Shown: piece by piece, positions 2,237-49,976 of the stretch
How positions within the stretch are numbered: the stretch's first letter is position 1
Layout of the letters: every line of letters starts with the position of its first letter
Origin: Streptomyces longispororuber
Lineage (GTDB): Bacteria > Actinomycetota > Actinomycetes > Streptomycetales > Streptomycetaceae
NCBI RefSeq assembly: GCF_014656095.1
Contig: NZ_BNBT01000024.1
Coordinates: forward strand, 1 to 64,000
Direction: 5' to 3'
Length of the DNA: 64,000 nt
Position numbers and translations under genes: made by a program
Notes under the pieces: generated by a model
Told to the model about the DNA's origin: nothing
The model's input: the letters and a program-made list of their open reading frames with translations, nothing else
The model's database searches: none

Positions 2237-4429
2237 TCACAGCTCCTTGATCCGGATGTCGCGGTACGACACCACGTCGGTGACCCCGTGGACCTGGAGG
2301 CCCACGTAGCCGGTCGCGTAGCGGCGGCCGTCCGTGCCGGGGTCGTCGGCGCGCGGCGGCTCGAAGACCTGGCCGCCGCCGTTCTCGAACTCGTTGATCA
2401 GCACGCCGTTGCGGTACACCGCGTAGTGCTGGCCGACCACGCGGATCTCGTAGTCGTTCCAGGTGCCCTTCGGCGTCACGCCCGCGCCCGCGAGGCCGAC
2501 GCGGTCGAAGCCGTAGACCGACCCGGTCTTGTACATGTCGCCGTCGGGGCGGTCGAGGACCTGGACCTCGTGGCCGTACTTGATGGCCACCCACTCCGGG
2601 CGCGGCTCCTCCGGGTGGTCGTGGACCTGCGGGAAGCGCACGAAGACACCGGAGTTGGCGTTGCCCTGGCCGGGCGCGTCGTCGCGCCACTGGAGCTTCA
2701 GCGAGAAGTCGCCGTACTTGCGCGCGGGGAACCACAGCATGCCGAGACCGCTCCTGGTGGTGCCCGACGTCATGGTGCCGTCGGCGTTCAGCTCGAACGA
2801 ACCGCCGCCCACATGCTGCCACCTGGCGAACGACTGCCGCGTACCGTCGAAGAGGGGGCGGTAGCCCTCGGTCTGGCCGGGCTCGCCGATGCCGGAGTCC
2901 TTCGCCGCGCGGTTGATCGCGGTGTGCTCGCGCCGGTCGATCTCGCCCGCCCTCCTCAGCCGGTCCGTGACCGCCTTGACGTGCTTGAGGAACAGCGCGT
3001 GCGACGACCAGTCCTTCTCGTCCTCGATCAGTTCGCCGATCCGGCAGCGGTTGTCGGTGACCCGGTTCGGGATGCCCGTGTCGACCGTGCCGACGAAGAC
3101 CGTCGACCGCTCGTCGTACTCGGGGCAGGCGGGACCCGGCACTCCGCCGCCCTGGGCGACGGTGAACGCCACCGACTTCGCGGGCGCCGTGTTGCCCGCC
3201 TTGTCGCTCGCCCGGTACGCCACGGTGTGCCGCCCGACGCGGTCGACGACCACGGGGGCCGCGTACGCGACGTAGGGGCCGCCGTCCAGGGAGTACTCGA
3301 CCTTGTCGACGCCCGAGCCCGCGTCGGTGGCGGTGACCGTCACCTTCGCCCGGCCGACGTAGGCGCCGTCGGAGTTCTTGTCGCCCTCGACCTTCGCCGA
3401 GGTCTGGGGCGGCGTCCTGTCCTCCGCGGGCGGGGCGACCACCGTGAACGCGACCGACTTCTCGGGCGCCACGTTCCCGGCCTTGTCGGACGCCCGGTAG
3501 CGCACCGTGTGGGAGCCGGGCGCGTGCACCATCACCGGCGCGGTGTACGCGGTCCAGGCGCCGTCGCCGAGCGCGTACTCGACCGTGTTTAGGCCGGAGC
3601 CCGCGTCGGAGGCCGCCACCGTGACCGTCGCCATGCCGACGTACTGGCCCTGCCCGTTCTGCTCGCCGGTGACGGTGGCGGAGGTCTCCGGAGGCGTCCT
3701 GTCGTCGTTCGGCGGCGCGACGACGCGGAAGTCCACCGCCTTCTCTGCGGCCACGTTGCCCGCCTTGTCGCTCGCGCGGTAGCGGACCTTGTGGGCGCCG
3801 ACCGTGTTCACGACCACCGGGGCGGTGTACGGCTGCCACGCGCCGTCCGCGCCGAGGGCGTACTCGACCTTGTCGACGCCCGAGCCCGCGTCGGTGGCCG
3901 TCACCGTGACCGTCGCCGAGCCGACGTACGCGCCGTCGCCGTCGGTCGCGCCGTCGACCTGCGCCTTCGTCTCGGGCGCGGTCGTGTCCTGCCCGCCGTC
4001 CTCGGTCACGACGAGGACGCCCTGCATCGCCCCGTGCCCGGGGATGGTGCAGTAGTAGCGGTAACGGCCGGGGGTGAGGGTGACCTCGGCGGTGTGCCTG
4101 CCGCCCCGGTCGTCGCCGGGGTTGGCGAGGATGTTCAGCGCGACGTCGTCGTTGTACTCCGGGTCGGACACGTCGAACGTCAGCGTGTGCGGCATGCCGG
4201 TGGTGTTGCCGGTCGCCACGCTGTTCTCGAAGACGATCGTGGTCCGGCCCGCGACCGCCGTCGTCGGCGCGGACCGGTACGCGTCGATGTCGTTGTCTGC
4301 GGTCCAGGTCAGGGTCTGCTGCTGGAGCCGGGGCTCGTCCGGCCGGGCGGTGGCCGCCGGGACCAGGCCGAGCACCAGCGCGAGCGCCGCGAGCAGCACC
4401 GGCCACACGCGTGGGGGAGCGGTTCTCAT
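2237..4429 (-). CDS. secreted cupredoxin / OmpL47-repeat / DUF1080 (3-keto-disaccharide hydrolase-like) protein
   Basis: A 730-aa modular secreted protein. Residues 1-29 are a Sec signal peptide. Residues about 35-145 form a cupredoxin-like domain with the expected blue-copper ligands H81, C127, H132 and M135. Residues about 149-432 hold three near-identical OmpL47-type beta repeats, each ending in YRASDKAGN. After an unassigned segment with two cysteines (about 445-545), residues about 550-730 match DUF1080, a concanavalin-like fold some members of which hydrolyse 3-keto-glycosides. The start is ATG 4429, which overlaps the upstream gene's stop as ATGA, so translation is probably coupled. 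The partner is a ThuA/PQQ-type dehydrogenase, which suggests joint oxidation and cleavage of sugars outside the cell. Substrate and copper loading are not shown by sequence. Confidence 0.85.
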   Translation of the reverse strand: MRTAPPRVWPVLLAALALVLGLVPAATARPDEPRLQQQTLTWTADNDIDAYRSAPTTAVAGRTTIVFENSVATGNTTGMPHTLTFDVSDPEYNDDVALNILANPGDDRGGRHTAEVTLTPGRYRYYCTIPGHGAMQGVLVVTEDGGQDTTAPETKAQVDGATDGDGAYVGSATVTVTATDAGSGVDKVEYALGADGAWQPYTAPVVVNTVGAHKVRYRASDKAGNVAAEKAVDFRVVAPPNDDRTPPETSATVTGEQNGQGQYVGMATVTVAASDAGSGLNTVEYALGDGAWTAYTAPVMVHAPGSHTVRYRASDKAGNVAPEKSVAFTVVAPPAEDRTPPQTSAKVEGDKNSDGAYVGRAKVTVTATDAGSGVDKVEYSLDGGPYVAYAAPVVVDRVGRHTVAYRASDKAGNTAPAKSVAFTVAQGGGVPGPACPEYDERSTVFVGTVDTGIPNRVTDNRCRIGELIEDEKDWSSHALFLKHVKAVTDRLRRAGEIDRREHTAINRAAKDSGIGEPGQTEGYRPLFDGTRQSFARWQHVGGGSFELNADGTMTSGTTRSGLGMLWFPARKYGDFSLKLQWRDDAPGQGNANSGVFVRFPQVHDHPEEPRPEWVAIKYGHEVQVLDRPDGDMYKTGSVYGFDRVGLAGAGVTPKGTWNDYEIRVVGQHYAVYRNGVLINEFENGGGQVFEPPRADDPGTDGRRYATGYVGLQVHGVTDVVSYRDIRIKEL

Positions 4430-17695: not shown

Positions 17696-17785
17696 GCGCC
17701 CGGCCCGGCCCGCCCCCCGTCGGGCCGCTCGCGTCCGTGCAAGCCGCGGCCGCGCACGCCGCCTCCGCGCGAGCCGCGTCCGCAC

Positions 17786-20452: not shown

Positions 20453-21421
20453 TCAGCCCCGTGCGGCCATGCGGGCCCGGCGGGCGGCGAGGCGTTCGTC
20501 GAAGCGGCGGGCCTCCGTGTCGAGGCCGTCGAGGTAGAGGCCCAGCTCCTCCTGCGCGCGGATGCCGTCGGGGCCGAGCCCCGGCACCTCCATGACCTTG
20601 AGGAAGCGCAGGACGGGCTGGAGGACGTCGTCGTGGTGGATGCGCAGGTTGTAGACGCCGCCGATGGCCATCTTCGCGGCGGCCCGCTCGAAGCCGGGGA
20701 TGCCGTGGCCGGGCATGCGGAAGTCGACCACCACGTCCCGCACCGCGCGCATCGTCGCGTCGGGCGCGAGCTCGAAGGCGGCCTTGAGGAGGTTGCGGTA
20801 GAAGACCATGTGCAGGTTCTCGTCGGTGGCGATGCGGGCCAGCATCCGGTCGCAGACCGGGTCGCCGGACTGGTGTCCGGTGTTGCGGTGGGAGATGCGG
20901 GTGGCCAGCTCCTGGAACGCCACGTAGGCGACGGAGTGCAGCATCGAGTGCCGGTTGTCGGACTCGAACCCCTCGCTCATGTGCGACATACGGAAACGTT
21001 CAAGCTGGTCCGGGTCCACGGCCCGGGACGCGAGCAGGTAGTCCCGCATCACGATGCCGTGGCGGCCCTCCTCGGCCGTCCAGCGGTGCACCCACGTGCC
21101 CCACGCCCCGTCGCGGCCGAAGAGTGAGGCGATCTCGTGGTGGTAGCTCGGCAGGTTGTCCTCGGTCAGGAGGTTGACGACGAGAGCGATCCGGCCGACG
21201 TCGGTGACGGGGGACTGGGACAGCTCCCAGGCCTCGCCGTCCTCGAACAGGCCGGGGAAGTTGCGGGCGTCGGAGAACGGCACGTACTCGTGCGGCATCC
21301 AGTCCTTGGCGACCTTCAGGTGGCGGTTGAGCTCTTTCTCGACCACCTCCTCCAGCGCGTACAGCAACCGGGCGTCGGTCCAGGTGTCCGGGCTGCCGAG
21401 GTGGGGAGAGGTGAGCGTCAC
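20453..21421 (-). CDS. acyl-ACP desaturase (ferritin-like di-iron fatty acid desaturase)
   Basis: A 322-aa soluble desaturase of the stearoyl-ACP type that introduces a double bond into ACP-bound acyl chains using a di-iron centre. Both EXXH motifs are visible: EEGRH (residues 117-121) and DENLH (about 200), with additional ligands in LEEVVEKEL and the ELATRIS helix. GTG 21421 was preferred to ATG 21457 because GGAG lies 6 nt upstream and the protein then starts MTLTSPHLGSPDTW. The upstream 21524-21561 region carries three copies of a GTAGGTTA-type half-site, so it is likely repressed by a TetR-like regulator responding to acyl chains or membrane state. The regulator is not adjacent. Confidence 0.93.
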   Translation of the reverse strand: MTLTSPHLGSPDTWTDARLLYALEEVVEKELNRHLKVAKDWMPHEYVPFSDARNFPGLFEDGEAWELSQSPVTDVGRIALVVNLLTEDNLPSYHHEIASLFGRDGAWGTWVHRWTAEEGRHGIVMRDYLLASRAVDPDQLERFRMSHMSEGFESDNRHSMLHSVAYVAFQELATRISHRNTGHQSGDPVCDRMLARIATDENLHMVFYRNLLKAAFELAPDATMRAVRDVVVDFRMPGHGIPGFERAAAKMAIGGVYNLRIHHDDVLQPVLRFLKVMEVPGLGPDGIRAQEELGLYLDGLDTEARRFDERLAARRARMAARG

Positions 21422-29748: not shown

Positions 29749-29871
29749 GGCCGGCGGGGGCCGGGGCGGGGGCCGGAGCCGGGGCTTGGGCGCCGCGCGT
29801 CGGGGGGCGTGGCGGCTGAGGCCGCGGTGCGTTCCTGTCGTCTCCGTAACGCCCGCTGTCCCCGGGACGCA

Positions 29872-29961
29872 GCCACCGAGACGACAGGAGTCACCGAGAC
29901 AACGGGAGTCACCGAGACAACGGGAGCCACTGAGACAGCAGAGGTCACTGAGACAACGGGC
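29872..29961. repeat. minisatellite A: five 18-bp units
   Basis: Units start at 29872, 29890, 29908, 29926 and 29944. The consensus is GTCACCGAGACAACGGGA with 0-6 changes per unit. Open in several frames but no start with SD. It begins 120 bp after the PEP-mutase-like gene. Confidence 0.85.
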
Positions 29962-29967
29962 GCCCCA

Positions 29968-30094
29968 GGACCAGCAGGCACCCTAGAGTCAGCAGGCACC
30001 CCGGAGTCAGCAGGCACCCCAAAGGTCGGCAGGCACCCTGGAGTCAGCAGGCACCCCAAATGTCGGCAGACGCCCCGGTGTCAGCAGGCGTCCC
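29968..30094. repeat. minisatellite B: seven 17-19-bp units running into the SsgA-like stop codon
   Basis: Units with consensus GGAGTCAGCAGGCACCCC start near 29968, 29985, 30003, 30021, 30040, 30058 and 30077. The last unit contains the stop and final Cys, Ala and Asp codons of the gene ending at 30081, so the array looks like tandem copying of that 3' end. Confidence 0.85.
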
Positions 30095-33169: not shown

Positions 33170-33188
33170 GCCGCGCGGCCACCCTCGA

Positions 33189-33368
33189 TCACGCCGCCAC
33201 CGACGGGGCGGCACCGCCACCCCCCCCGGGCCGCGCGGTACCTGACCGGGCCGCACGGCGACCGCCCGGGCCGCGCCGCGATCCACCGGGTTACGCGGTA
33301 ACCGACTTGACCACGCCGCCACCGGCCGGTCACGCCGCCACCGGCGGCCGGTCACGCCGCCACCCACG
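33189..33368. repeat. dispersed TCACGCCGCCACC repeats and hairpin after endonuclease V
   Basis: The 13-mer or a one-base variant recurs at about 33189, 33311, 33329 and 33352. A small hairpin GGTTAC-GCG-GTAACC lies at 33289-33303. This 250-bp gap between convergent genes holds nothing else I recognise. Confidence 0.6.
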
Positions 33369-33419
33369 CACTTCCCCCGGTGGTCACACCACGCGGCCCC
33401 CCCGCCCCCCGGCCGAGCC

Positions 33420-41571: not shown

Positions 41572-41589
41572 GGCGGGCGGGGCGCGGGG

Positions 41590-41925
41590 CGCGCGGGGGA
41601 GCGGCCGCGGGCCGCGGGCCGCGTGAGCGGTGGCCGCGGGCCGTGCGGCGCGTGAGTCAGTGACCGCGGGCCTTGGGCCCGACGCGCGTGGGGGAGCGGC
41701 CACGGGTCCTGGGCCGCGACGCGTGTGGGGAGTGGCCGTGCGGCGCGGGCGGAGGTGGCCGCGGGCCTCGGGCCGCGACGGGCGTGGGGAGTGGCCGCGA
41801 GGCGCGTGGGGAGGCCGCGACACGCGCGAGGGAGTGGCCGCGAGGCGTGTGGGGAGGGGCCGCGACGTGCGTGAGGGAGCGGGCGCGACGCGCGTGGGGG
41901 AGTGGGCGCGGGGCCGCGAGCAGGT
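41590..41925. repeat. degenerate 24-28-bp tandem array filling the 359-bp gap after fadB
   Basis: About ten imperfect units of the type GCCGCGACGCGCGTGGGGGA then GTGG occupy the gap between convergent genes (41571 and 41931). Open frames on the plus strand are by-products of composition. No other feature seen there. Confidence 0.75.
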
Positions 41926-41930
41926 GCTGC

Positions 41931-44717: not shown

Positions 44718-44737
44718 CCCACGGATGTACATGTGCC

Positions 44738-44752
44738 TCTCACCATGTGAGA
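44738..44752. promoter_or_regulatory. palindrome upstream of the amino acid permease
   Basis: TCTCAC-CAT-GTGAGA is a perfect 6-bp inverted repeat 150 bp before the permease start and 20 bp after the ligase stop. It may be an operator (GntR/MarR type) or a weak terminator. Confidence 0.4.
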
Positions 44753-44901
44753 AGTACCGCTATGTGACGTGCGCCACCGCGTTCCGGGCGTTGCGTAAGG
44801 GAAGGTGTCGGGTCGGTCCGTGGTCCGTCAGGGGTACTGCGGACCGGAGCACATCCGGACCCCGGGAGCTCTTTCCGGGCACCACAGAGTGGACCTTCCA
44901 C

Positions 44902-46356
44902 GTGAGCAACGACGCCGTAGACACGGCCGTGGACGCCAGCCGCACCGCTGCGTCCCAGGCCCCCGCGGACGCGGGCGACGCCGGTTACAGCAAGGACCTC
45001 AAGGCCCGCCACGTCAACATGATCGCCATCGGTGGCGCGATCGGCACCGGCCTCTTCCTCGGGGCGGGTGGCCGCCTCCACTCGGCGGGCCCCGCGCTCG
45101 CCCTCGCCTACCTCGTGTGCGGCGTCATCGCGTTCTTCGTCGTGCGCGCCCTCGGCGAGATGGTCCTGTACCGGCCCTCGTCCGGCTCCTTCGTCAGTTA
45201 CGCGCGCGAGTTCCTCGGCGAGAAGGGCGCCTACGTCGCCGGCTGGATGTACTTCCTCAACTGGTCGACGACCTGCATCGCCGACATCACGGCGATCGCC
45301 CTCTACACGCACTACTGGAGCTTCTTCACCGACATCCCGCAGTGGGTGCTCGCGCTGATCGCCCTCGCCGTCGTCCTCGCGGTGAACCTGATCTCGGTGA
45401 AGTACTTCGGCGAGATGGAGTTCTGGTTCGCGATCATCAAGGTCGCGGCGCTCGTGGCGTTCATGTTCATCGGCATCTTCCTGGTGGCGACGCAGCACGA
45501 CGTGGGCGGCGAGACGCCCGGCCTGAGCATGATCACCGACCACGGCGGCTTCCTGCCGAACGGCGTGATGCCGGTCGTGATCGTCCTCCAGGGCGTCGTC
45601 TTCGCGTACGCCTCCCTGGAGCTGGTCGGCGTCGCGGCGGGCGAGACCAAGGACCCGCAGAAGGTCGTACCGCGCGCCGTGAACTCGATCATGTGGCGCG
45701 TGGGCCTGTTCTACGTCGGCTCGGTCGTGCTGCTCGCGCTGCTGCTGCCCGGGTCGGTGTACTCGGCCGACCAGAGCCCGTTCGTGACGGTCCTGTCGAA
45801 GATCGGCGTCTCGGGCGCCGGCGACGTGATGAACTTCGTCGTCCTCACCGCCGCCATGTCCTCGCTGAACTCCGGCCTGTACTCCACCGGCCGCATCCTG
45901 CGCTCCATGGCGATGGCGGGCTCCGCCCCGAAGTTCACCGCGAAGATGAACCGCAACCAGGTGCCCTACGGCGGCATCCTGCTCACCGCGAGCATCGGCG
46001 TCCTCGGCGTCGCGCTGAACCGCGTGGTCCCGGACCAGGCGTTCGAGATCGTCCTGAACGTCGCCTCGCTCGGCATCATCGGCACCTGGATCAGCATCAT
46101 GGTGTGCCACCTGGCGTTCGTGAAGCGGGCCAAGGAGGGGCACATCACCCGGCCGTCGTTCCGGCTGCCCGGCAGCGGGGTCACGGAGTACGTCACCATC
46201 GCCTTCCTGCTGGCCGTGCTCGGCCTGATGTGGAAGGACGCGGAGGTGGGGCGCAAGACGCTGTTCCTGATTCCGGTGGTGGCTGCGGCGCTGGTCGCGG
46301 GTTGGTACGGGATCAAGCGCAAGGCCGCCCGCGAGGCAGCCCCCCTCACCAAGTAA
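44902..46356 (+). CDS. amino acid permease (APC family)
   Basis: A 484-aa cytoplasmic-membrane transporter with about 12 hydrophobic segments. The amino-acid permease signature begins after a hydrophilic 35-residue head with LKARHVNMIAIGGAIGTGLF, then LGEMVLYRPSSGSFVSYARE, which is typical of the AnsP/GabP/proline-specific group. TM segments include LALAYLVCGVIAFFVV, WVLALIALAVVLAVNLISV and VAALVAFMFIGIFLV. GTG 44902 gives a normal head; it is not strongly preceded by an SD. Substrate might be asparagine, lysine or GABA; sequence alone does not decide. It is followed by the long repeat region. Confidence 0.9.
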   Translation: MSNDAVDTAVDASRTAASQAPADAGDAGYSKDLKARHVNMIAIGGAIGTGLFLGAGGRLHSAGPALALAYLVCGVIAFFVVRALGEMVLYRPSSGSFVSYAREFLGEKGAYVAGWMYFLNWSTTCIADITAIALYTHYWSFFTDIPQWVLALIALAVVLAVNLISVKYFGEMEFWFAIIKVAALVAFMFIGIFLVATQHDVGGETPGLSMITDHGGFLPNGVMPVVIVLQGVVFAYASLELVGVAAGETKDPQKVVPRAVNSIMWRVGLFYVGSVVLLALLLPGSVYSADQSPFVTVLSKIGVSGAGDVMNFVVLTAAMSSLNSGLYSTGRILRSMAMAGSAPKFTAKMNRNQVPYGGILLTASIGVLGVALNRVVPDQAFEIVLNVASLGIIGTWISIMVCHLAFVKRAKEGHITRPSFRLPGSGVTEYVTIAFLLAVLGLMWKDAEVGRKTLFLIPVVAAALVAGWYGIKRKAAREAAPLTK

Positions 46357-46380
46357 CCGAGGCCCCGGTCCCCTACCCCG

Positions 46381-46492
46381 GCCTTCCAGCCACCGGGCCC
46401 CTGCCCTGGCCTTCCAGCCACCGGGCCCCGGCCCTGGCCTTCCAGCCACCGGGCCCCGGCCCTGGCCTTCCGGCCACCGGGCCCCGGTCCTC
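46381..46492. repeat. four tandem 28-bp repeats after the permease
   Basis: Units of exactly 28 bp begin at 46381, 46409, 46437 and 46465, with consensus GCCTTCCAGCCACCGGGCCC followed by CGGCCCTG. They are near identical, so expansion is recent. Confidence 0.9.
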
Positions 46493-46555
46493 CGGGGGGA
46501 CCGGGCAGCGAGCCCTTGCCCCGGCCCTCCGGGGTGACTGGGCAGCGAGCCCTTG

Positions 46556-46608
46556 CCCCTGCGCCGACGGGCGGTACCCCACGCGGGTGCCGCCCGTCGG
46601 CACAGGGG
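46556..46608. terminator. very long hairpin inside the repeat region
   Basis: CCCCTG plus a 17-nt arm (46556-46579) pairs with its complement (46585-46608), giving a stem of about 23 bp with one G-U pair, single mismatched nucleotides at 46562 and 46602, and a 5-nt loop CACGC. Possible terminator of the permease transcript, 200 bp downstream. Confidence 0.7.
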
Positions 46609-46630
46609 CCTGGCGGCGGCACCCCCAGCC

Positions 46631-46927
46631 TTTCCCACCCGCCCGCCCGTACCGCCCTGGTGACCGGGCTGGGTCGGGCTTGGTGGCCGTTGGGCCCTGG
46701 CCGACACCTCTCGCGGCAGTGAGCCGGGCTTTCCCACCCGCCCGCCCGTGCCGCCCTGGTGGCCAGGCTCGACCGGGCGTGGTGGACCTTGAGCCCTGGC
46801 CGACACCTCTGGCGGCAGTGAGCCGGGCTTTCCCACCCGCCCGCCCGTGCCGCCCTGGTGGCCAGGTTCGACCGGGCGTGGTGGACCTTGAGCCCCAGCC
46901 GACAACTCTCGCGGCAGCGAGGCGAGC
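46631..46927. repeat. three tandem 99-bp repeats
   Basis: Copies start at 46631, 46730 and 46829, each beginning TTTCCCACCCGCCCGCCCGT and holding CCGCCCTGGTG and CCGACACCTCT. A decayed fourth copy extends to about 47040. No start codon/SD or recognisable protein; all open frames reflect GC content. Confidence 0.9.
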
Positions 46928-47145
46928 CCTCCCGTCCGACCCGTAAGCACCCTGGCCACCACTCCGCGCGGCAGCGAGCCAAACCTGCTGACCCGCCCGC
47001 CCGTACCACCCTGGTGACCGGGCTCGGTCGGCGAGCTTTCAGCCCCCTGCCCGGCTCGCCGCAGTACCCAGACCTCCTCGGCCCCGCGCTCGGGCCCTTG
47101 GCTCCCAGCCTCCCGGCGGCGAGATCCCCCGCCCCCACCGGCCCC

Positions 47146-47270
47146 CCGGCCGGTCCGCCGCGGAGGGGGCGGACGGGTGGGGGGGGAACATCCGTCGCGA
47201 AGCGGCGGCTCAGGGGACCGCCATCCCGGCGAGGGACGAACGCGAAACCTGAGCCCAGGCGCCGAAGAAG
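47146..47270. repeat. element C, copy 1 (about 120 bp)
   Basis: Begins CCGGCCGGTCCGCC and includes ACATCCGTCGCGAAGCGGCG, then ends around GCCCAGGCGCCGAAG. The TCCGTCGC / GCGAGGGA arms are imperfect in this copy. Confidence 0.75.
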
Positions 47271-47319
47271 GGGCGGGCGGGCTCATGCGATGGCCACGTG
47301 GGGCAACCAAGCGCGCGCC

Positions 47320-47461
47320 GGGTGAGGCCAGCCAGACCCTCCCGGCCGGTCCGCCCCGGAGGGGGCGGGCGGGCGGGGGTACATCCGTCGCGGAGCGGCG
47401 GATCAGCGAACCATCACCGCAGCGACGGACGAAGACGACCTCAAGCCCAGGCGCCGAAGCA
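47320..47461. repeat. element C, copy 2
   Basis: Preceded by GGTGAGGCCAGCCAGACC; core from 47342. TCCGTCGC (47384-47391) and GCGACGGA (47422-47429) are a perfect inverted repeat. Confidence 0.8.
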
Positions 47462-48158
47462 GATCCAGATGAAACCGAGCCGGGCCCAGGCCAAGCGGAG
47501 CCGCGCGAGCCCGGGCCCAAGTCAAGCGGAGCCGACCAAGCCCCAGCCAGGGCCAAGCGGCGTCAGATGTGCCCGGGGCCCAGGCCAGGCGGAGCCGCGC
47601 GAGCCCAGGCTCAGGCCAAACGGAGCCGACCAGGCCCGAGCGCAGGCCAAGTGGAGCGAGCAAGCCTGAGCGGAGCCAAGCGGAGCCGGGTGGGCCCGAG
47701 CACAGGCCGAGCGGAGCCGCGCGGGTCAAGCGAAGCCGACCAAGCCCGAGCCAGGGCCAAGCGGTGCCAGATGGGCCCGGGCCCAGGACAGGCGGAGCCG
47801 CGCGAGCCCAGGCTCGGGCCGAGCGGAGCCAACCAAGCCCGGGCCCAGGCCAAGCGAAGCTGGATGGGCCCGAGCCCGCGTCGGGTGAGGCCAACCAGAC
47901 CCCCCCGGCCGGTCCGCCCCGGAGGGGGCGGGCGGGCGGGGGAACATCCGTCGCGAAGCGGCGGATCAGCGAACCACCACCCCAGCGACGGACAAAGACG
48001 CCCCCGAGCCCAAGCGCCAAAGCGGAGCCAGGCCGGCCGGGCCCAGGCCAAGCGGCGACCAAGCCCGAGCCCGGCCCCAGGCCAAGCCGACCCGCCCGAG
48101 CCCAGCCGCAGGCCAAGCGGAGCCGGACCAGCCCGGGCGGAAAGCCAGACCAACCCGC
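47462..48158. repeat. short-unit D array with a 204-bp higher-order repeat
   Basis: More than twenty variants of GGCCAAGCGGAGCC joined to GCGCGAGCCCGGGCC fill 47462-47883 and 48020-48158, interrupted by element C copy 3. A higher-order period of 204 bp is clear: GTCAAGCGGAGCCGACCAAG at 47521 recurs at 47725 with its next 100 bp. Units resemble the left arm of the hairpin at 48159, so the array may have grown from it. Confidence 0.85.
47884..48019. repeat. element C, copy 3
   Basis: Preceded by GGTGAGGCCAACCAGACC; core from 47905. TCCGTCGC (47947-47954) pairs with GCGACGGA (47985-47992). It is closest to copy 2. Confidence 0.8.
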
Positions 48159-48193
48159 GCGAGCCCGGGCGGAGCGGTTCCGCCCGGGCTCGC
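48159..48193. terminator. 15-bp perfect hairpin after the M1 peptidase gene
   Basis: GCGAGCCCGGGCGGA (48159-48173) and TCCGCCCGGGCTCGC (48179-48193) flank the loop GCGGT. It lies 10 nt after the stop of the minus-strand peptidase gene and can work in both directions. Confidence 0.85.
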
Positions 48194-48202
48194 CGGAGGT
48201 GG

Positions 48203-49705
48203 TCAGTGGTGGTCGTGGAGGGTGTTCGTCGCGGTGATCTTCTTCCAGGACTTCGGCTTCGCCGGAGCCTTCTCCCCCGCGGCCCGAGCGACCCCCGCCC
48301 CCCGCGCGGCCGGAGCGCCCGGCTTGCCCGCCTTGTACAGCCACGTGTCGAAGAGGCCGCTCAGCGGCTTGCCGCTGACCTCCTCGGCGTAGGACACGAA
48401 GTCCCGCACGGACGCGTTGCCGTGCGCCCGCTCCGTCGGCCAGCCCTTCAGGATCTTGAAGAAGGTCTTGTCGCCGACCTTGTTCCGCAGCGCCTGCAGG
48501 GCGAGGGCCCCGCGGTCGTAGACGGCGGCGTGGAACTGGTTGTCGGGGCCCGGGTCGCCCGGCTTGACCTGCCAGAAGGGGTCGGTCGCGGGGCGGGAGG
48601 CGTAGGCGTAGTCGGCGAGTTCCTGCGCCGTGCCCTCGCCCTCCTTCTCGGACCACAGCCACTGGCTGTAGCGCGCGAAGCCCTCGTTGATCCAGATGTC
48701 CTTCCAGTTCTCCACGGAGACGCTGTCGCCGTACCACTGGTGGGCGATCTCGTGCACGACGATGGAGACGTTCGAGCCGTTGGCGAAGGCCCGGGGGCCG
48801 TAGAACGGGCGCGTCTGGGTCTCCAGGGCGTAGCTCGCGGGGACGTTCGGGACGTAGCCGCCGAGCGCGTTGAAGGGGTAGGGGCCGAACACCTCCTCCA
48901 GCCACTCGGCCACCTCGGTGGTGCGCTCGATGCTGGCGCGGGCGGCGCCCGCGTTGTCGCCGAGGTCCTTGCTGTAGGCGTTCAGGACGGGCAGGCCGTT
49001 CTCGGTCTTGTCCGTCGTGATGTCGAACTTGCCGACGGCGAGCGTCGCCAGGTACGGCGCCTGCGGCTTGTTGGAGCGCCAGTCGAAGCGGGTCCAGCCG
49101 AGGCGCGAGGTCTGCCGCTGGAGCACGCCGTTGGAGATGGCCTGGGAGCCGTCCGGCACGGCCACCGACACGTCGAACGTGGCCTTGTCGCGCGGGTGGT
49201 CGTTGGCGGGGAACCACCAGGCCGCCGACTCCGGCTCCTGCGCGGCGACGCCCCCGTCGGGCGTGCGCTGCCAGGCGGTGAAGCCGTGTATCTTCACCTC
49301 GGACGGCTTGCCCGCGTACCGCACGACGATCGTCACGGAACTGCCCTTCGGCAGCCCCGACTTGGGCGTGATCTCCAGCTCCTGCTCGCCGGAGCGCGCG
49401 AACGCGGCCTTCTTGCCGTTGACGCGCACCTCGCTCACCTTCAGGCCGAAGTCGAGGTTGAAGCGCGACAGGTCCTGCGTGGTGGTGGCGGTGATGGTCG
49501 CCGTGCCCTCCAGCAGGTCGGTCGTCGGCTGGTACTTCAGGCGCAGGTCGTAGTGCGAGACGTCGTAGCCGCCGTTGCCGTGGTCCGGGTAGTAGGAGTC
49601 GCCCACGCCGGGGGCCCCGGGCGTGAAGTCGGCCGCCGTCGCCGGGATCGCCAGCAGGAGGGAGGCGGCGAGCGCGCCCGGGGCGATGAGTCTGCTGCGG
49701 TGCAC
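48203..49705 (-). CDS. secreted M1-family zinc metallopeptidase (aminopeptidase N-like)
   Basis: A 500-aa exported aminopeptidase. Residues 1-25 (RLIAPGALAASLLLAIPATAA) form a Sec signal. The zinc motif HEIAHQW is at 318-324 with the third ligand E341 in INEGFARY. An exopeptidase GAMEN-like region corresponds to LGGYVPNVPASYALETQT, where the usual ENPG/GAMEN is not kept, so specificity may differ. The protein lacks the long C-terminal helical domain of PepN (about 850 aa). A Lys/Pro/Ala tail ends NTLHDHH. GTG 49705 was selected for the upstream GGAG. Divergent from an S15-like peptidase gene; its transcript ends at the 15-bp hairpin. Confidence 0.92.
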   Translation of the reverse strand: MHRSRLIAPGALAASLLLAIPATAADFTPGAPGVGDSYYPDHGNGGYDVSHYDLRLKYQPTTDLLEGTATITATTTQDLSRFNLDFGLKVSEVRVNGKKAAFARSGEQELEITPKSGLPKGSSVTIVVRYAGKPSEVKIHGFTAWQRTPDGGVAAQEPESAAWWFPANDHPRDKATFDVSVAVPDGSQAISNGVLQRQTSRLGWTRFDWRSNKPQAPYLATLAVGKFDITTDKTENGLPVLNAYSKDLGDNAGAARASIERTTEVAEWLEEVFGPYPFNALGGYVPNVPASYALETQTRPFYGPRAFANGSNVSIVVHEIAHQWYGDSVSVENWKDIWINEGFARYSQWLWSEKEGEGTAQELADYAYASRPATDPFWQVKPGDPGPDNQFHAAVYDRGALALQALRNKVGDKTFFKILKGWPTERAHGNASVRDFVSYAEEVSGKPLSGLFDTWLYKAGKPGAPAARGAGVARAAGEKAPAKPKSWKKITATNTLHDHH

Positions 49706-49976
49706 GTGTATCTCCAAGTGGGTAGGCGGTGCGGGTCGTTGCGCCCGGCACCCGGCCCCGGTCGGGGGCCGGGGTGCCGGGCACCTCGCGATGCGGTCGA
49801 CCCTATTGAGCCCCGCCACTCCCGGTCATGTCCATGGCCGCATATGTCACACGATCGCCATTCGGCCGACATGTGCGACCATGACCGACGCACCTTTCAC
49901 CACCGTGCGCGGCCCGCGCCGCGAGCCCCGTACGGCCCTCTTTCCGGCCGCTGTTGACCGGTGTACCTTCCGCGCC

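Follow-up and report, generated by a model that had tools for sequence, protein, structure and literature searches.

The window analysed here, the first 64,000 nucleotides of contig NZ_BNBT01000024.1 of Streptomyces longispororuber, contains a gap of 1846 bp (positions 46357-48202) separating the 3' ends of two convergent genes that Pfam identifies as an amino acid permease and an M1 family peptidase (Table 1). The initial annotation described this gap as gene-free, and a custom codon-usage caller agrees, placing no gene within it. Long open frames traverse the region on both strands; the repeat units of 28, 37 and 31 bp are, however, indivisible by three, so the repeats break any reading frame.

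Table 1. Flanking genes, repeat arrays and hairpins of the permease-peptidase gap (window positions; strand left empty where none is assigned).
Feature	Position	Strand	Details
Amino acid permease gene	44725-46356	+	PF00324 (AA_permease), E 4.8e-118; stop codon at 46356
A array, 28-bp unit x4.5	46365-46491		TRF, 93% matches; between permease stop (46356) and hairpin at 46555
37-bp unit x2.1	46481-46559		TRF, 92% matches
Hairpin, 25-bp arms	46555-46609	+	Inverted repeat I4, 92% complementary; probable permease terminator
B array, 99-bp unit x2.9	46630-46921	-	TRF, 91% matches; left arm of island
Degraded fourth B copy	46950-47031		77% to 82-nt reference copy
C copy 1	47142-47306	+	Hairpin CATCCGTCGCGAAGCGGCGG retained; no perfect G4 motif
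C copy 2	47307-47468	+	G4 motif at 47363 (G-rich strand plus), then hairpin core at 47382
D array, first block, 31-bp units	47476-47869		TRF; 203-204-base higher-order period
C copy 3	47870-48031	+	G4 motif at 47926 (G-rich strand plus), then hairpin core at 47945; right arm of island
D array, second block	48032-48147		TRF, 31 bp x3.3 at 48020-48124
Hairpin, 26-bp arms	48148-48204	-	Inverted repeat I5, 85% complementary; reaches peptidase stop; probable terminator
M1 family peptidase gene	48203-49819	-	PF01433 (Peptidase_M1), E 1.7e-25

Recurring exact 14-mers make up 49.7% of the gap; across 100 dinucleotide-preserving shuffles the figure averages 0.3% and never exceeds 3.3%. The four repeat classes first reported, A to D, are all borne out by TRF, self-comparison and these shuffle statistics, and their copies lie head to tail in tandem, as in a minisatellite or VNTR. 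The 37-bp repeat, the degraded fourth copy of B and the hairpins at both ends had escaped that first description. Five perfect G-quadruplex (G4) motifs occur at the locus, one in each unit of the B array with the G-rich strand on minus (46634, 46733 and 46832) and one in each of the two later C copies with the G-rich strand on plus. These two C copies are 90% identical over 162 nt, with a shorter match, at 83%, covering 47142-47267. In the D array TRF counts 8.1, 4.5 and 3.3 copies of the 31-bp unit, and lags of 203 and 31 bases are the two strongest self-matches of 47476-47870; the 204-bp higher-order period proposed earlier is therefore correct to within one base. T is scarce on the plus strand of this array, at 3.7% in 47469-47869 and absent from 48032-48150, a strong strand asymmetry. 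No match to the D array outside the locus was found among the 40 scored of 58 candidates. Elsewhere in the window, a 282-bp unit is repeated 2.7 times in tandem at 3162-3934.

The source genome is a draft of 354 contigs, so the exact repeat copy numbers may be off. It is nonetheless highly improbable that the array as a whole is an assembly artefact. Such fragmentation, and poly-G runs elsewhere that look artificial, would allow for one, but the repeat copies differ from each other by 7-40%, the locus is internal to a contig of 70,966 bases, and similar arrays occur at dozens of loci and in the one-contig genome G093.

Both ends of the gap carry strong hairpins. The first begins 199 bases past the permease stop, on the far side of the A array, with a folding energy of -60.9 kcal/mol (46550-46615, z -7.8); the second, on the minus strand, folds at -50.3 kcal/mol (48140-48205, z -6.7). 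By eye, the first resembles the post-permease hairpins of S. typhae and S. aureocirculatus, and we do not claim homology because alignment failed to pair them. Folding of the C element is moderate relative to shuffles (z -2.1 and -3.0), and its 52-nt core shows no gain over them (z 0.06 and 0.05). No Rfam family reaches its gathering score within the gap, and a search for intrinsic terminators, a stem-loop followed by a T-run, found one site against 1.2 expected. The sole Rfam match in the window, ASdes (RF01781, 52.8 bits against a gathering score of 40), lies at 21003-21070 on the plus strand. The suggestion that the locus is a source of structured RNA may hold for the end hairpins and, moderately, for C, and does not extend to a recognised Rfam family. 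As products of the region we consider both a repetitive protein and a conserved structured RNA very improbable; the open frames and the somewhat better than random folding of C would fit, but the codon-usage calls, the frame-breaking units, the Rfam result and the lack of anything similar in the corresponding gaps of seven relatives speak against it.

Those relatives were drawn from 80 loci at which the peptidase was found, 19 of which had a convergent permease in the fetched DNA; gaps were read for the seven closest peptidases. They measure 516, 77, 1039, 70, 1063, 1010 and 1044 bp. An intact-looking ORF of 323-333 codons occupies the gap in four of them (S. aurantiacus, S. flavofungini, S. 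lasiicapitis and S. alboflavus); the one scanned, that of S. lasiicapitis, is an oxygenase-like MPAB_Lcp_cat protein. Streptomyces sp. NRRL B-1347 retains a 163-bp remnant, 81-84% like the ORFs of its relatives, and the gaps of S. typhae and S. aureocirculatus contain little besides a hairpin. A single slot therefore displays an oxygenase-like gene as present, decaying or gone among close relatives. The array was also considered as a remnant of this gene and rejected, since the S. lasiicapitis ORF, compared by tblastn with window positions 46001-48600, gave a best E of 1.0. The repeats of the locus are not shared with any of the seven gaps, and a single 37-bp match was found across all comparisons. 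Given this lack of shared repeats and the varied contents, the slot readily changes what it contains and how long it is, and, as judged against these seven, the array is a peculiarity of the window's lineage. The proposal of a hypervariable locus is upheld in this between-species sense, with 70-1063 bp in the relatives and 1846 bp here; for the proposal of a recombination site, we found no evidence at the locus.

Tandem arrays are widespread in the intergenic DNA of this genome, making up 13.5% of it, as against 2.4% of coding DNA, in a sample of 1.26 Mb. In that sample, 54 of the 171 convergent intergenic regions contain a TRF array, as do 145 of the 461 co-directional and 49 of the 191 divergent ones. 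Among the 171 convergent regions, the locus ranks first in array coverage and third in length. Its nested repeats, first thought unusual for a bacterial chromosome, are thus unusual only in degree. Further convergent gaps of the window, at 41572-41930, 29749-30080, 33170-33419 and 17696-17785, hold tandem arrays of private units and no G4 motif.

The 99-bp B and the C elements have a common core, the one-base-loop G4 motif GGGYGGGYGGGYGGG, which occurs genome-wide. B and C are the arms of a dispersed intergenic G4-motif family, mirror-ordered around the middle of the gap. Units of the family are about 80-120 bp long, with spacers between the cores that vary from locus to locus (in one alignment), and a small GNA-loop hairpin often lies a few bases outside the core. 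The motif GGGYGGGYGGGYGGG counts 345 occurrences here, 148, 82 and 44 in three other Streptomyces and at most 23 in each of the other 146 of the 149 genomes compared; the family is therefore expanded in this species and very few other Streptomyces. With 40 of 218 candidates scored, the B core gave at least 51 matches at E<=0.001, many elsewhere in pairs or runs 80-115 bp apart, and the C element gave at least 25 with 40 of 159 scored. Searching genomes for C, as proposed at the outset, proved useful: its core is dispersed in this genome (44 sites at no more than one mismatch, against 1 for a control) and largely absent from other Streptomyces. The pattern of G4 plus hairpin, at up to two mismatches, occurs in 10 of 150 genomes, with 14 copies here, 23 in G093 and one or two elsewhere.

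A second dispersed element, M1 (AGCCCGTCCGGCGNTTGAGGAC), numbers 351 copies in this genome and ranges from 0 to 351 across 150 Streptomyces genomes, 106 of which carry it. It often accompanies the G4 element in this genome and often forms tandem or inverted pairs. In several islands of G093, another conserved repeat (GGGGGTATGTGCG ... CGCACATACCCCC) lies beside the G4 arms. A literature search with the literal string AGCCCGTCCGGCGNTTGAGGAC returned nothing relevant. For the G4 element, a search judged by titles and abstract openings, with thin coverage of subscription journals, found no paper, which leaves absence unproven.

The density of one-base-loop G4 motifs rises from 0.006 per kb in coding DNA through 0.03 in divergent and 0.33 in co-directional to 0.63 in convergent regions, in a sample that was partly hit-chosen and with a pattern that also catches a few poly-G runs. 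Long runs of this kind, possibly assembly artefacts, lie at contig positions C45:28901, C33:5989 and 36940. Over 2.35 Mb, of which about 0.63 Mb was hit-chosen, custom gene calls define 300 convergent regions, of which 18 hold a G4 island, against 27 of 870 co-directional and 4 of 343 divergent ones. Among the 49 islands sampled, from which one duplicate had been dropped, all 12 with both orientations have minus motifs on the left and plus motifs on the right. The same order holds in 12 of 12 such islands in G093 (out of 16 islands there; 18 of its 20 stretches were hit-chosen). Of the 37 single-orientation islands, 31 have a C-rich strand that points away from whichever gene is closer (p 4e-5), and three of the other six come close to a tie. 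Neighbouring motifs no more than 2.5 kb apart show minus-plus order 15 times and plus-minus order never, compared with 12 and 0 in G093; an any-base-loop pattern yields two plus-minus pairs here, both within poly-G runs. All 21 opposite-strand pairs of element M1 no more than 600 bp apart follow the same order here, and in a partial list from other genomes two pairs, both in G115, are reversed against four that agree. A 6-kb overlap between two sampled stretches was removed from the M1 and motif-pair counts, as from those for spacers and hairpins; units within one array are not independent.

This polarity is not an artefact of base composition, which the G4-free control regions rule out. The skew is missing there (0.014 and -0.020), and in motif-free regions short tracts are slightly reversed (351 CCCrCCC against 421 GGGyGGG). 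In G4-bearing regions, the remaining sequence is also pyrimidine-rich when read away from the gene, with a C-G skew of 0.093 and 0.057. The permease-peptidase locus is a large, decayed example of these oriented intergenic G4 element arrays.

An element confined to 3' ends was also considered. Read in the C-rich direction, 17 of 62 placed arrays have a gene 5' end upstream, in a tally of 64 that includes one array twice (once as 'edge'), and single-arm islands in co-directional regions follow a 3' end in 15 cases and precede a 5' end in 7, with no clear bias. We abandoned this reading because arrays also occur 53-129 bp before gene starts and because the split between 3' and 5' in stretches not chosen by hits (1.72 Mb) is 7 to 5. 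The genes flanking the exceptional arrays were translated, and several of the translations resemble known proteins; downstream of some start-proximal arrays are genes that we take to be GroEL and Era.

The observed polarity would suit a device acting from both sides, and it is conceivable, though we would not expect it, that the islands are two-way transcription barriers in which an RNA hairpin is followed by a template-strand G4 or by C-rich, Rho-friendly RNA, with copies adding to the effect. The excess of islands in convergent regions fits this idea. Hairpins provide a further measure. Among CATCCGYCGC-type hairpins adjoining a G4, the GNA loop, a kind very stable in DNA, is kept in 48 of 49, copies that are not independent. 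A hairpin within 10 bases of the G4 occurs on the outer side in 45 of 134 units and on the inner side in 24 of 134, compared with 488 of 2072 random intergenic places (23.6%); in G093 the counts are 28 and 20 of 42. This outer-side excess is a modest bias, and the hairpin test supports a barrier weakly. Outer and inner flanks fold alike (-16.6 and -16.4 kcal/mol), and the 52-nt core, as stated above, does not exceed its shuffles. At the locus itself, six arms were tested and just one forms an unbroken hairpin on the inward-read strand; all three C copies have a G.T wobble on the G-rich strand and hence an A.C mismatch on the inward-read one. Both flanking genes already possess strong hairpins of their own, and neither the number of T-run terminators nor the 15 to 7 distribution of co-directional single-arm islands argues for a barrier. 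In favour of a barrier, Streptomyces 3' ends with a stem-loop often lack a U-tract (353 of 535 such ends in S. clavuligerus; PMC8269248). As the report describes them, the I-shaped (GC-rich, U-poor) terminators of Streptomyces are, like the structures here, GC-rich stem-loops near gene ends without a U-tract; unlike them, those studied here are tied to a G4 motif, occur in tandem and are also found before gene starts (PMC8269248). Doubtful to a slightly greater degree is the idea that the islands represent a new insulator spread in this lineage, working in both directions through mirror-ordered arms, each a hairpin and, a few bases on, a template-strand G4, repeated in tandem between genes and needing no U-tract to halt RNA polymerase from either side.

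The polarity could instead reflect pure descent, from a palindromic, MITE-like mobile element that inserted whole and whose arms then multiplied. Many G093 islands do resemble one element (hairpin, C-run, short stem, centre, mirror image), the burst of GGGYGGGYGGGYGGG is limited to a lineage, and a minisatellite within a MITE is known from Porphyromonas gingivalis, where BrickBuilt has a 23-bp unit in 19 copies and promoter activity has been shown (PMC4596501). As portrayed in that source, BrickBuilt shares with the present islands an intergenic tandem array, multiplication in one species and perhaps inverted-repeat ends, and differs from them in that the G4 core, mirror-ordered arms and locus-private units are features of the islands here (PMC4596501). 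We regard this origin as unlikely, however. Most islands (37 of 49) have a single orientation, and yet 31 of those follow the nearer gene, which is unlike random insertion. The spacer between cores varies by locus. No Y1 transposase was found in the genome, with no match to PF01797 here and a positive control in 5 of 14 genomes. As to the terminal inverted repeats expected of a MITE, the arms are mirror-ordered, and constant element ends were not found in the single alignment made.

The transposase result also bears on REP elements and BIMEs, which are associated with RAYT transposases and are short, palindromic, dispersed and intergenic, forming mosaics with other modules. The island elements have all of these traits, but differ in having a G4 core and long tandem arrays and in that no Y1 transposase was found in their genome. 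So far as that transposase defines the REP/RAYT class, identity with it is ruled out.

The closest parallel is with the GGGNATC repeats of Xanthomonas and Nostoc (Rehm et al. 2015, PMC4692102), whose strand follows the nearer ORF whatever its direction. There the G-rich strand reads away from the gene, and inverted pairs number 70 and 75 cases (PMC4692102). Insofar as that report characterises them, these repeats resemble ours in being G4-capable, dispersed, mostly intergenic, few between divergent genes and expanded in few lineages, in tracking the nearer gene by strand and in commonly forming inverted pairs. The predicted G4 motif here likewise consists of tandem G-tracts that are intergenic and over-represented. 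The differences lie in the unit, which measures about 80-120 bp, more than ten times the 7 bp reported there, and has the core GGGYGGGYGGGYGGG rather than a heptameric GGGNATC or GGGGAYT, and in the sign of the polarity: here it is toward the nearer gene that the G-rich strand reads, and the pairs are the mirror image of theirs, which are convergent. Oriented intergenic G4 repeats are thus already known from Xanthomonas and Nostoc, with the opposite sign.

Taken together, we think it probable that the locus is a non-coding repeat island that grew by tandem duplication of a lineage-expanded, oriented G4 element, with a polarity kept by transcription. Repeated local duplication of the arms, together with locus-private sequence (A, the 37-bp unit and D), would have built the island, possibly helped by structure-prone G-runs and hairpins, and, since both neighbouring genes finish at its edges, the gap would accept nearly any length. 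Transcription may also have maintained the polarity. For transcripts entering the gap from either flanking gene, the G-rich strand would always be the template, the less mutable orientation, and arrays in reverse orientation would be lost as more mutable. In E. coli, having the G-rich strand of (G3T)8 as nontemplate was reported to raise the mutation rate by factors of 354 and 270 (PMC7023247). It is less obvious how such a filter would act on arrays lying 5' of a gene, such as the 17 of 62 counted above, and the 7 to 5 split and the reversed M1 pairs of G115 also weigh against this reading.

Whichever reading applies, the opposite signs of polarity in Xanthomonas and in this genome need explaining. 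If the polarity is functional, the islands would offer a simple, testable way for a GC-rich bacterium short of U-tracts to keep adjacent transcription units apart, and could supply Streptomyces engineering with two-way terminators. Should it instead reflect a survival filter, it would constitute natural, genome-scale evidence, in agreement with the plasmid result in E. coli, that transcription decides which bacterial G4 repeats persist.
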